From: Planctomycetaceae bacterium
GTDB lineage: Bacteria > Planctomycetota > Planctomycetia > Pirellulales > UBA1268
Direction of reading: 5' to 3'
Assembly (NCBI GenBank): GCA_021300535.1
Contig: JAJTED010000079.1
Coordinates: 1-33,668 of the forward strand
DNA: 33,668 nt
Positions 26,639 through 29,257 of the stretch are shown in pieces (the stretch's first letter is position 1; each line of letters starts with the position of its first letter). The notes beneath the pieces were generated by a model, which did not search any database, had not been told where the DNA came from, and worked only from the letters and a program-made list of their open reading frames with translations. The position numbers and the translations under genes are program-made.

Positions 26639-27334
26639 CTACCGGGCGTGCAGGACGGCGAGTGCATCCGGCGCCTCGGCGAGCAGCGGTGAATGTCCGA
26701 GGTAGCGCTCCGCCATCTCCCGGCGACCGCGGGCGAGGAGCGTCGCGTAGACGTGCAGTTCGAAGTGCAGCCGCAGTCGTCCCTCCGCATCGAGCTCGCC
26801 GGCGCCGCGCAGCACGCCCAGCAGCGCCTCGGCGGTGGAGAGCTGCGTCGGCCCCGGCTGGTCACGGAGCCAGTAGCGGCCCGGCTCGCTGCTGGCGTCG
26901 GGCAGACGGACACAGCGGCCCAGGGCCTCGACGCTGCGCAGCATTTCGCCGGCCTGCCGCCAGGTGCCGTCGAGGAGCAAGACCGTCGTGCCTGTGTATT
27001 GTCCGCCCGCGGTCGCTGCGACTGGCTCGGGCATCGGGTCTCCGCCGGGATGCAGGATCCACAACTCGCGGCCGGGCTCGAGCGAGTCGGCGGCAAACCC
27101 GGCGGCGGGATGGAAGCGGGTTGCCCGTTGAAACACGTGGCACGCGGCGCCGGCCACGGCCCGTACAATGAGCCGGCCCGTGCTCGACGGCTTGCAATGT
27201 TCGCCGCGATGGATCAGCACGTGCACGGCGAGCTGCGTCTCCACGGGCGGCAGCAGGTCGCAGGTGCACCACCGTGGCGGCAAGCTGCACCGCGGGCAGC
27301 GGGCGGCCCCGGCGCGAACGACGCTTCTTCCCAT
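26639..27334 (-). CDS. DTW-domain tRNA-uridine aminocarboxypropyltransferase
   Basis: 231-residue enzyme of the DTW/TapT (E. coli YfiP) family, which transfers the 3-amino-3-carboxypropyl group of S-adenosylmethionine to uridine in tRNA to make acp3U. The zinc-binding start CPRCSLPPRWCTC (about residues 13-25), the motif LLLDGTWRQAGEML (about 117-130) containing the family's D-x-T-W, and LSTAEALLGVL (about 163-173) are all visible. The ATG at 27334 gives the zinc knuckle at the expected place. It is upstream of the solenoid gene on the same strand, with 148 nt between them. Confidence 0.88.
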   Translation of the reverse strand: MGRSVVRAGAARCPRCSLPPRWCTCDLLPPVETQLAVHVLIHRGEHCKPSSTGRLIVRAVAGAACHVFQRATRFHPAAGFAADSLEPGRELWILHPGGDPMPEPVAATAGGQYTGTTVLLLDGTWRQAGEMLRSVEALGRCVRLPDASSEPGRYWLRDQPGPTQLSTAEALLGVLRGAGELDAEGRLRLHFELHVYATLLARGRREMAERYLGHSPLLAEAPDALAVLHAR

Positions 27335-27488
27335 GAAGCGACAGCCTAGCCGAACGTGCGGCCGGAAACGGCGGATCGCCTATACTCCTCCTGTCGTTCC
27401 CCGGCGACGGCTGGGGAGATAACCGCCCGGCGGCGATCTCGCAGTGATCGCGACGGCTGGGATTCCTTTGGCGAAAGGAGGTGGTCTA

Positions 27489-27524
27489 GTGACGCAAGAC
27501 TGTACCGGAGGGCTGCGCCGATAG
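27489..27524 (+). CDS. Possible 11-codon leader peptide inside the structured RNA
   Basis: GTG at 27489 lies 7 nt after AGGAGG within AAAGGAGGTG (27474-27483), the strongest ribosome site in the window. The frame encodes VTQDCTGGLRR and stops at TAG. The first part of the ribosome site is paired with TCCTTT in a hairpin, so translation could be regulated. It may instead be a chance frame in an RNA. Confidence 0.35.
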   Translation: MTQDCTGGLRR

Positions 27525-27575
27525 CGGCGAGTCGACGGGCCTGCCGTTGATGCAGCCCACCAAATAGTTCCTACG

Positions 27576-27608
27576 GCTGCCGCCCCCTCGTGGGGCGGCA
27601 GCTTTTTT
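27576..27608 (+). terminator. Strong intrinsic terminator
   Basis: GCTGCCGCCCC (27576-27586), a 5-nt loop, GGGGCGGCAGC (27592-27602), then TTTTTT. The 11-bp perfect stem with a six-T tract is the best terminator in the window and has no plus-strand protein gene before it, so it must end a non-coding or leader transcript. Confidence 0.9.
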
Positions 27609-27713: not shown

Positions 27714-28889
27714 CTACCGGTAGAGTGGCAACTCCGAGATGCGGCGGTCGATCTCGCCCAGCAGCCGCCGGGTCTCCGTGCCGCCGAGACCACCGTAGTC
27801 CGCTTGGAGCTGGTCGCGGGTGATGGCCTCCGGTAGGCCACGGATCGACGGCAGCAGGTCGGAGACCTCCACGCCCTGCCGGATTCGGGTTTGCATCGTG
27901 TGGGCCGATCGCGAGTTCCGGGTGGCCTCGACCGCCAGGCGAATGCCGGCGGAGTTGGCCGCCATGTCCACGAACGAGAAGCCCGAGCCTCCCGGCGTCG
28001 AATCCATCGCCTCCTTGGAGAGACCCACGGCGATCGCCCGCGACTCGTCCGACAGCGCGGCCAGCGCCGCACTCACCCAGAAGTGCTGCGACAGATCGCC
28101 GCGACCGCCGAGCAGGATTCGTCGGCGCAGTGCGATCCGGTCGTTGGCCGGCCCGAGGTCGAGATCACGGCCCCCGACTCGGGCCACGCTGTCGTCACCG
28201 AGGATTTTTCCCAAGGCGAGGATCGCGGCTCGATTAGGCAGGACGGCGTCGGTACCGTGCGAGTTGTCCTCGGCATATGCAAGCGCGATCTCCAGCAGCC
28301 GCAGGAACCCCGCGTCGCCGTCGGGGACGTCGGCGGCCGCCTCGAGCACGTGACGGGCCGTGCCCTGCCAGGCCTCGTACAAGTCGTCGGCCACGCCGGT
28401 GGTAGCGCCCCATGCGGAGAGGCCGCCGGCGAGGATCGCAAGTGTGCCCAGGGCCGCCCAGTTGCGACGCAGTGCCAGGCCGGCAAGCCCGCCCAGAAAC
28501 GCGACGAGCAGAATGAACATCAGCTGCGGCCAGATGGGCAGTGCCCCGAAGTTGATCCGCTTGGCGGCCAGCGCGAGCAGGGGTGCGCCGACGAGCAGGG
28601 TCGGCACGGCGGCCCGCGACTTCCAGCCGGACAGGGAGATGGCCAACAGCACGCCGATCAGGCCGACGCCGGCACCGCGAAGCAGCGCCGTCGCCGCGAA
28701 TCGTGCCTTTGGTTCACTGAGCGCGGCCACGCGCTGGACGAGCTGCACCGTCCACTCCGGCGCACCCAGCGGCCGCGGGTCGGGCAGCACGCAGAGCATC
28801 GCGAGCCAGGCCACGAGTCCGACGCCCGCAATCCGCACCGCCAAGCGTTGCTTCAAAAACGAATGTACGAACGAAGTGGCGATCGACAT
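27714..28889 (-). CDS. Membrane-anchored protein of unknown function
   Basis: 391-residue protein. The N-terminal 165 residues contain about five hydrophobic segments (roughly 15-35, 65-85, 92-108, 116-134 and 140-160). The rest is soluble and includes SQHFWVSAALAALSDESRAI and a conserved-looking GGSGFSFVDMAANSAGIRLA. I have a sense that the GSGFSF-type block recurs in uncharacterised bacterial proteins, but I cannot name a family. The ATG at 28889 is the start nearest the first helix; the frame is open to 28940. It converges on the structured RNA at 27381-27608. Confidence 0.7.
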   Translation of the reverse strand: MSIATSFVHSFLKQRLAVRIAGVGLVAWLAMLCVLPDPRPLGAPEWTVQLVQRVAALSEPKARFAATALLRGAGVGLIGVLLAISLSGWKSRAAVPTLLVGAPLLALAAKRINFGALPIWPQLMFILLVAFLGGLAGLALRRNWAALGTLAILAGGLSAWGATTGVADDLYEAWQGTARHVLEAAADVPDGDAGFLRLLEIALAYAEDNSHGTDAVLPNRAAILALGKILGDDSVARVGGRDLDLGPANDRIALRRRILLGGRGDLSQHFWVSAALAALSDESRAIAVGLSKEAMDSTPGGSGFSFVDMAANSAGIRLAVEATRNSRSAHTMQTRIRQGVEVSDLLPSIRGLPEAITRDQLQADYGGLGGTETRRLLGEIDRRISELPLYR

Positions 28890-29257
28890 GGATTGCAGTC
28901 TACAGGGACAATACCCCCGACAGGGATCAGTGAATCTCAATGAACCCCGATAAACACGCAGGTTTTCAAAACCGACTTCCCTAGATCCGACCCTGTTTCA
29001 GGGCAGGCCGTCGCCCTTGGCGGACGACCGCTGAAAAGAGAGACCGGGATGGCCGGCGAGGAGGGCGACGGCAGGGATGGAAAAGCGCCGCCGGGCGTCA
29101 TAGTCCCTCGGCTCCTCGGTGTTGGTCAGGGCAGAGTCGGTGCCCTTGGGTGCCGCCACTGTCTGCTTTCAAATGCCGCAACCACTTACGGTGCTGACCG
29201 CACTGTCCGCCCGTAGACTAAAAACGGTTTGACGTTGCCCCATGAGGTGCCGCACCC
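28890..29257. other. Gene-free stretch at the edge of the toxin-antitoxin region
   Basis: No convincing gene or RNA is seen. The stretch is less GC-rich than the DNA to its left in places and marks the change from single-copy chromosomal genes to accessory genes. The promoter of the antitoxin remnant at 29258 should be near its right end. Confidence 0.4.

Follow-up and report, generated by a model that had tools for sequence, protein, structure and literature searches.

Positions 27381-27608 on the plus strand of the window, by which is meant the whole 33,668-nt stretch of planctomycete DNA analysed here, hold what looks like an autonomous small RNA gene of about 216 nt. Its conserved RNA structure, an extended Shine-Dalgarno element (SD1), the frame of a short ORF (the minigene) and the position of a second Shine-Dalgarno-like site before the stop codon (SD2) can all be read directly from the sequence and its relatives. 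We regard it as an even bet that this is an autonomous RNA of the Planctomycetota in which SD1 catches the 30S subunit, the minigene is translated and SD2 provides a hold at the stop codon. A structured RNA unit had been proposed at this place by a sequence-only reading of the window, and it is present as described, far above chance. Among the identities offered there, that of a new small RNA stands up well, with covarying stems, no Rfam match at gathering score and a single match in each matching genome of the phylum, and a ribosome-binding regulatory RNA is the most likely kind, as judged from sequence evidence.

The RNA itself probably spans 27393-27608 (about 216 nt, plus strand, as are all of its features given below), its start being placed from a -10-like box, TATACT, at 27381-27386 and its end at an intrinsic terminator; in the alignment of relatives, sequence conservation sets in at about 27393. 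As judged by eye, TA-rich boxes at a similar spacing to the first hairpin, P1, occur in most of the loci L001-L022 and are absent from L023-L027. The unit had been credited with its own -10 box, and this hexamer is indeed there; no sigma-70 promoter pair passes the promoter scan. The terminator (27575-27608) has a stem of 12 pairs instead of the 11 first counted, 10 of them G-C, followed by a T-run. On folding, the plus strand is more stable than 200 of 200 shuffles (z -3.89). The minimum free energy fold pairs a 5' CUCCU with the Shine-Dalgarno sequence; this CUCCU lies upstream of the likely start and is variable in relatives.

The flanking genes, called on the basis of ORFs alone, had both been described as facing away from the RNA, which holds for the left one only: a gene for a DTW-domain protein (26639-27334, minus strand) is divergent, whereas the right-hand ORF (27714-28940, minus strand), which has no Pfam match, would converge on the RNA. 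Within flanks of 0.4-1.7 kb, a homologue of the DTW gene accompanies the RNA only in L001 and L005, and one of the right-hand ORF only in L001; in L005 the DTW homologue adjoins the RNA at the opposite side compared with the window. ARAGORN finds no tRNA or tmRNA gene in the whole window. A second copy of the RNA in its own genome was considered and rejected, since BLASTN gives one strong match; the other own-genome match to the Rfam family CC2171, on contig C196 with 21.4 bits, looks coding by eye.

Three helices of the RNA covary. In hairpin P1 (27398-27417) a Y-G pair closes the loop GACG (27406-27409); over 24 sequences, 4 of its 7 pairs show two-sided changes and 100 % of cells are paired. 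Hairpin P2 (27426-27461) has GACG bulged out of its 3' strand, and in its inner stem such changes affect 4 of 5 pairs over the same number of sequences. The closing helix P3 of a three-way junction, GGGCTGC/GCAGCCC (27510-27516 with 27552-27558), is too constant among close relatives and was therefore judged over 21 planctomycete sequences; two-sided changes are seen in 4 of 6 pairs and 97.6 % of cells are paired, a count that leans towards the helix since the rows were cut at a 3' strand chosen by eye. The P3 alignment (A3) takes 21 of the 23 members whose 3' strand of P3 was recognizable by eye, without L019 and L028, and L033, L034, L040-L043, L048-L060, L070 and L071 are among the other loci absent from the count. 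Shuffles reach the five measures for P3 in 0, 1, 0, 13 and 0 of 500 cases. Within the junction, hairpin P4 (27517-27528) carries the stop codon in its loop, with 97.9 % of cells paired and no two-sided change (24 sequences). Hairpin P5 (27531-27551), containing UCGACGGG, is a GACG tetraloop hairpin in many distant members; its stem hardly varies in the kin of the window, which itself forms no 4-bp GACG hairpin there.

Taken as a whole, the structure has 97.8 % of cells paired and 11 pairs with two-sided changes (24 sequences), and on every one of the five measures all 500 shuffles fall short of it. The underlying alignment A1 comprises 25 sequences, leaving out L020, L021 and L028, and A2 is also without L003; L020 and L021 have an insertion in the junction. 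Across these 25 sequences, of which the window is one, no variation is seen in AGGAGGTG, in the start codon's TG, in the GACGG that P1 and P5 each contain or in most of the junction's 3' half. The hairpins and the three-way junction that had been predicted thus receive support from covariation in P1, P2 and P3, and the stems are conserved over the planctomycete relatives, where a lack of conservation would have spoken against the prediction.

GACG-loop hairpins, which the sequence-only reading had not mentioned, are a recurrent element of the family; roughly every second divergent member has one upstream of SD1 or downstream of the minigene. Among 39 members (28 representatives and 11 loci found with a covariance model), 19 have a GACG tetraloop hairpin with at least 4 pairs on the 5' side of SD1 and 21 have one on the 3' side, in comparison with 7 and 2 members for the next best tetraloop, and with means of 0.67 and 0.56 (maxima 5 and 3) in mononucleotide shuffles. 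A longer 5' domain with a recurring GGGCGATG.GCC lies upstream of SD1 in L037-L039, L043, L044, L074 and L133, followed, as seen by eye, by a GACG-loop hairpin, a GGAAAAG-like stretch and CCGGCGGC.

SD1 was first noticed as a textbook anti-SD complement, AAAGGAGGTG (27474-27483), and proves to be longer than claimed. This stretch is part of the element AAAGGAGGTGGTCTAG (27474-27489), which overlaps the G of the start codon and complements CUGGAUCACCUCCUUU of 16S rRNA over 16 nt, in 16 contiguous pairs of which two are G-U. We take CUGGAUCACCUCCUUU, the part of 16S rRNA after helix 45, to be its free tail. No 16S gene was found in the own genome, and the tail was therefore taken from relatives: the 16S genes of three members of the same genus and of five other relatives end in CTGGATCACCTCCTTT, followed by a variable stretch. 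When the tail is taken with 3 nt beyond its predicted end, the longest complementary run in the window amounts to 18 pairs and ends at 27490; the longest runs in 60 simulated windows, single strands, are of 11-15. Duplex energy alone discriminates poorly (-28.4 kcal/mol for SD1, and as low as -26.7 for other sites of the window), which is why contiguous pairing was chosen as the test.

In the members found without the motif, 27 rows including the window (a 28th, L006, in which pairing breaks at the last bases, is not tabulated), all 16 tail bases are paired without a break in 21, G-U pairs being allowed. The rows contain 46 changes from the exact complement, of which 34 keep the pair as G-U and 12 break it. 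In L005, L007, L008, L009, L010 and L012, between one and all three of the final tail pairs are lost, so that full-length pairing, broken in 6 of the 27 close members, is not indispensable. Nor does SD1 alone imply a special function, since at 6 of its 13 sites on viral contigs the frame behind it is longer than 50 codons.

SD1 had been described as half buried in a TCCTTT-GGCG-AAAGGA hairpin. This weak hairpin (27464-27479) does mask the 5' part of SD1 in the window, but its 6-bp form is specific to the window, with about 4 bp in most relatives and none in some; in the 4-bp core, UCCU/AGGA, 92.4 % of cells are paired (24 sequences including the window), with no two-sided change. Over 38 members, the masking stems have a mean of 5.03 versus 4.35 pairs (0 of 500 shuffles), a small excess. 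As a conserved core of the RNA the hairpin was rejected, being without covariation and missing in some relatives.

As far as can be judged by eye, some loci also contain segments that resemble the 16S rRNA itself. In L054, L055 and L057 a copy of the 16S 3' end, GGATCACCTC, lies about 110-130 nt 3' of SD1 and is able to pair with the RNA's own SD1. By eye, L050-L053 are similar, with GGTGTTCC as SD1 and GGAACCTC as the 3' segment, which looks like compensation. TCACCTC is present within Bradyrhizobium minigenes and CTGGATC within other alphaproteobacterial ones. To the eye the internal anti-SD is striking in some lineages, and such segments could possibly serve as an internal competitor of the ribosome.

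The 11-codon frame that had been noted after the Shine-Dalgarno sequence is there as described. It consists of GUG, ten codons and UAG at 27489-27524 (GTG ACG CAA GAC TGT ACC GGA GGG CTG CGC CGA TAG), encodes MTQDCTGGLRR and is backed by frame conservation as well as by its sequence. In 28 planctomycete representatives, GUG or UUG opens a frame of 9-19 codons. The sole indel inside the frame in the 25 aligned sequences is one of 3 nt, in nine rows, and 1- and 2-nt indels are found outside it. A type I toxin-antitoxin system was rejected, as MTQDCTGGLRR and its close relatives are polar by eye, in place of the short hydrophobic toxin of such systems. A different arrangement from that of the window is seen at L031 (1415-1560), where two tandem minigenes with a strong Shine-Dalgarno sequence, 85 bases apart, encode the lysine-rich VKKSKPSPKK and VKKGKGCSPKK.

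SD2, GGAGGG at 27507-27512, lies 9 nt before the UAG. It had not been noted in the sequence-only reading, came to light as a recurring GGAGG-like site when the short frames were compared with one another, and is backed by a scan of anti-SD affinity and by codon shuffles; its typical place is 5-10 nt before the stop codon. In 78 representatives, thinned at 75 % identity, the mean affinity reaches -6.2 kcal/mol 8 nt before the stop, as against -0.9 to -3.0 outside the range of 4-11 nt. The mean at SD2 is -8.15 kcal/mol versus -3.78 after codon shuffling in the 28 planctomycetes, -10.05 versus -5.42 in 10 loci of the Rhodobacterales type, -5.17 versus -2.90 in the mostly alphaproteobacterial rest (35) and -9.24 versus -3.74 in five loci outside both groups, one of them from a betaproteobacterium; in each of the four groups, none of 2000 codon shuffles is as low as the observed mean. 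Values of -6 or lower are found in 24 of 28 planctomycetes, 10 of 10 Rhodobacterales-type loci and 17 of the 35. No SD2-like peak appears in long ORFs, for which 249 loci each supplied their longest stop-to-stop frame with a minimum of 300 codons; 42 of these 249 ORFs have -6 or lower in the SD2 range. These statistics exclude L006, L029-L031, L035, L146 and L153, and L090 and L120, with frames of more than 33 codons, are excluded from the representatives; the grouping follows the record names for loci up to L140 and sequence likeness for later ones, L174 counting as a planctomycete.

Strong sites before the stop also occur in four SD1 minigenes from outside the two main groups, L079 (Krumholzibacteriia), L091 (Chloroflexi), L101 and L115, the last two bearing the names Lujinxingiaceae and Myxococcales; several of the 30 alphaproteobacterial loci from the class search have none. 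As SD2 and the 5' strand of P3 share bases in planctomycetes, the conservation of SD2 could partly serve pairing. Pairing is probably not the whole reason for it, however, since SD2 is also found in Rhodobacterales, L079, L091 and L101. A second ORF started by SD2 was rejected, there being by eye no consistent NTG at the stop codon. We know of no function for a Shine-Dalgarno sequence placed for a stop rather than a start codon.

The RNA is widespread in its phylum. BLASTN matches below 1e-20 were obtained in 27 of 60 genomes, its own included, and in none of 23 genomes from the order's other families. A covariance model, R1, covering the part from SD1 to P3 (91 positions), matches 105 of 392 Planctomycetota genomes at an E-value of 0.01, exactly once in each, and leaves 287 without a match; this amounts to 73 of 216 good genomes and 71 of 267 genera, and the matched genomes include many of 98-100 % completeness and some in a single contig. 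E-values of R1 are rough and matches were read at 29 loci, three of which had no core in range, with L242 and L255 misanchored and L250 two bases off register. Its specificity was checked on 142 alphaproteobacterial genomes, where R1 gave nine matches in eight genomes, all on SD1 sites already listed. Since the training members carried both elements, R1 matches are no independent proof of SD1 or SD2. A motif search allowing one mismatch found 42 of the 392 Planctomycetota genomes, compared with 5 for a reversed-pattern control. Scanning genomes with the SD1 pattern gave at least 117 stretches, and among 80 records that were listed 63 or more are alphaproteobacterial by name; with no cap set on length, the frame has 33 codons or fewer at 115 of 117 such sites, the GTG being required by the pattern itself.

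From these features we infer that the RNA is transcribed and translated, parks ribosomes, switches and has an output. SD1 would capture the 30S subunit via the free tail of 16S rRNA, by about the strongest pairing that the tail allows, the limit presumably lying near the base of helix 45. Since no spacer remains ahead of the GUG when all 16 bp are formed, a capture state and an initiating state probably alternate, the former with full pairing and no initiation, the latter with only AAAGGAGG paired. Some ten codons would then be translated, after which the stop codon would be reached with the tail on SD2, and release would be slowed or the 30S subunit held. Because the spacing of SD2 to the stop codon mimics that of a Shine-Dalgarno sequence to its start codon, a terminating ribosome, or its 30S subunit, should be retained. 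A ribosome parked at the stop codon would have to unwind P3 as well as P4 and would thereby free the 3' strand and P5, so that ribosome supply would set the conformation of the RNA. The output may be storage of 30S subunits, or the presentation of hairpins and 3' strand to a partner. More tentatively, we suggest a new class of ribosome-parking RNAs, single-copy and spread across the Planctomycetota, whose double grip would sense or buffer free 30S subunits, with an incidental peptide and with counterparts, convergent or distantly related, in Alphaproteobacteria, Myxococcota and others.

The conserved frame could also be that of a small mRNA for a functional micropeptide, MTQDCTGGLRR and its kin, the structures stabilising the message and SD1 maximising its translation. 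The invariant TG of the start, the restriction to 3-nt indels and the in-frame stops would suit such an mRNA, as would the recurrence of D-C-T/x..G-L in the window's kin and in five other loci (L037, L039, L044, L045 and L074). However, the peptides of distant planctomycete members are unlike one another (MMIVRGSIRRWVR, MCSSCMIGGLAT, MGSPNRRPSS), several constant residues coincide with the codons that form SD2 and P3, and the synonymous fraction of single-base codon differences (0.343 versus 0.286 expected) barely exceeds expectation. SD2 at the stop codon would moreover go unexplained, and we consider a micropeptide gene unlikely. What counts seems to be the frame rather than the peptide, within the phylum and beyond it, and selection looks to fall on the ribosome contacts instead; with the frame kept and the peptide weakly constrained, the RNA is therefore read as one that would catch and park ribosomes. 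Improbable to much the same degree is a trans-acting sRNA for which ribosome loading would mean protection or turnover, regulation being exerted by the 3' strand or by protein-bound GACG hairpins. The excess of these hairpins over other tetraloops and shuffles argues for it, and so do the RNA's own terminator and -10-like box, against which it has to be set that no partner protein or target is known and that just a part of the members carry the hairpin on both sides, and the window on the 5' side alone.

A leader-peptide attenuator that has lost its gene had been among the first suggestions, and the minigene, stems and terminator do resemble one. Moreover, arfB (RF-1 domain), which encodes an alternative ribosome rescue factor, lies on the same strand downstream of an 18-codon SD1 minigene in 34 of 39 Rhodobacterales-type loci; it starts 178-315 nt past SD1 in 33 of the 37 loci that have arfB, and in L125 (3132-3554, minus strand), the one locus read for this, a terminator separates the two. 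Nevertheless, the RNA and its minigene are conserved in detail while the neighbouring genes change, and purifying selection on a dead leader would be unexpected. The nearest right-hand ORF of the window, taken as the next gene, is encoded on the minus strand and shows no conserved association with the RNA, so that a co-directional gene appears to be missing. An attenuator that is dead in the window, its gene being gone, is in our view very improbable. The last alternative turns on one row of a motif table whose middle column we take to be the cis-regulatory call. It holds that the RNA is identical with the Rhodopirellula-1 motif (Weinberg et al. 2010) or another described, uncurated motif; in the tabulated part of PMC2864571, this motif is indeed given for Proteobacteria and Planctomycetes and has no Rfam number, but its row reads '? 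y ?', and a cis-regulatory reading would misfit a stand-alone gene. Such an identity is hardly credible to us.

A Shine-Dalgarno sequence at the stop codon in several distant lineages points to a regulation of termination, recycling or 30S supply. With its sharply defined contacts, this widespread, apparently single-copy RNA is directly testable.

The RNA is not described in those portions of the literature that a search brought up, including portions of PMC4117421, PMC13009471, PMC10117765 and PMC2864571. The rnTrpL-peTrpL RNA of Sinorhizobium, leaderless and a tryptophan attenuator according to PMC10117765, likewise contains a short ORF within a small RNA; the RNA described here differs in being dominated by SD1 and SD2 and in having no co-directional gene behind it. 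Like a dual-function sRNA, the RNA has a short ORF, whose frame and start are kept and whose translation is predicted from sequence. Extended Shine-Dalgarno initiation of mRNAs and sORFs in Staphylococcus aureus, as far as the excerpted text of PMC13009471 goes, is similar in its extended, start-codon-proximal pairing with the 16S tail, and differs in that no Shine-Dalgarno sequence at a stop codon is described in that text.

A scan of the whole window against Rfam 15 gave no match at gathering score, so that no known family, which would have counted against a new RNA, was hit; the best sub-threshold match was rli32, with 22.7 bits versus 100. To CC2171 (RF01867; Caulobacter, alphaproteobacteria) the window scores 21.0 bits (E 0.02-0.04), mainly over SD1, and membership was rejected against the gathering score of 75. 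By our own criterion, which is not that of Rfam, the RNA does resemble this family in having a 16S-complementary 5' element and a GUG minigene. A literature search combining CC2171, Caulobacter and small RNA found no paper; small RNAs of Caulobacter are reportedly treated by Landt et al. (2008).

The likeness to CC2171 lies in a consensus that opens with the same CGAAAGGAGGUGAUCCAGUG element and in a GUG minigene, of 21-25 codons in the four loci, out of 18 submitted, that reach the RF01867 cut-off. In contrast, the CC2171 model is without a counterpart of P1 and P2 before SD1, and its ORF is longer and different. By eye, RNase R-like and UPF0178-like genes lie 3' of the CC2171-like minigene in L072, L139 (Bosea), L078, L111 and L145. 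The Rhodobacterales RNAs share SD1, an 18-codon minigene, a GGAGG-like site before the stop and, in L125, a terminator; they differ in the sequence 3' of the minigene and in the downstream arfB, and they are closer to CC2171, L125 scoring 37 bits over the whole CC2171 model, still below its cut-off. The RNAs of planctomycetes and alphaproteobacteria may have a common origin or have converged, and the RNA described here also hints at what the alphaproteobacterial RNA CC2171 may do.
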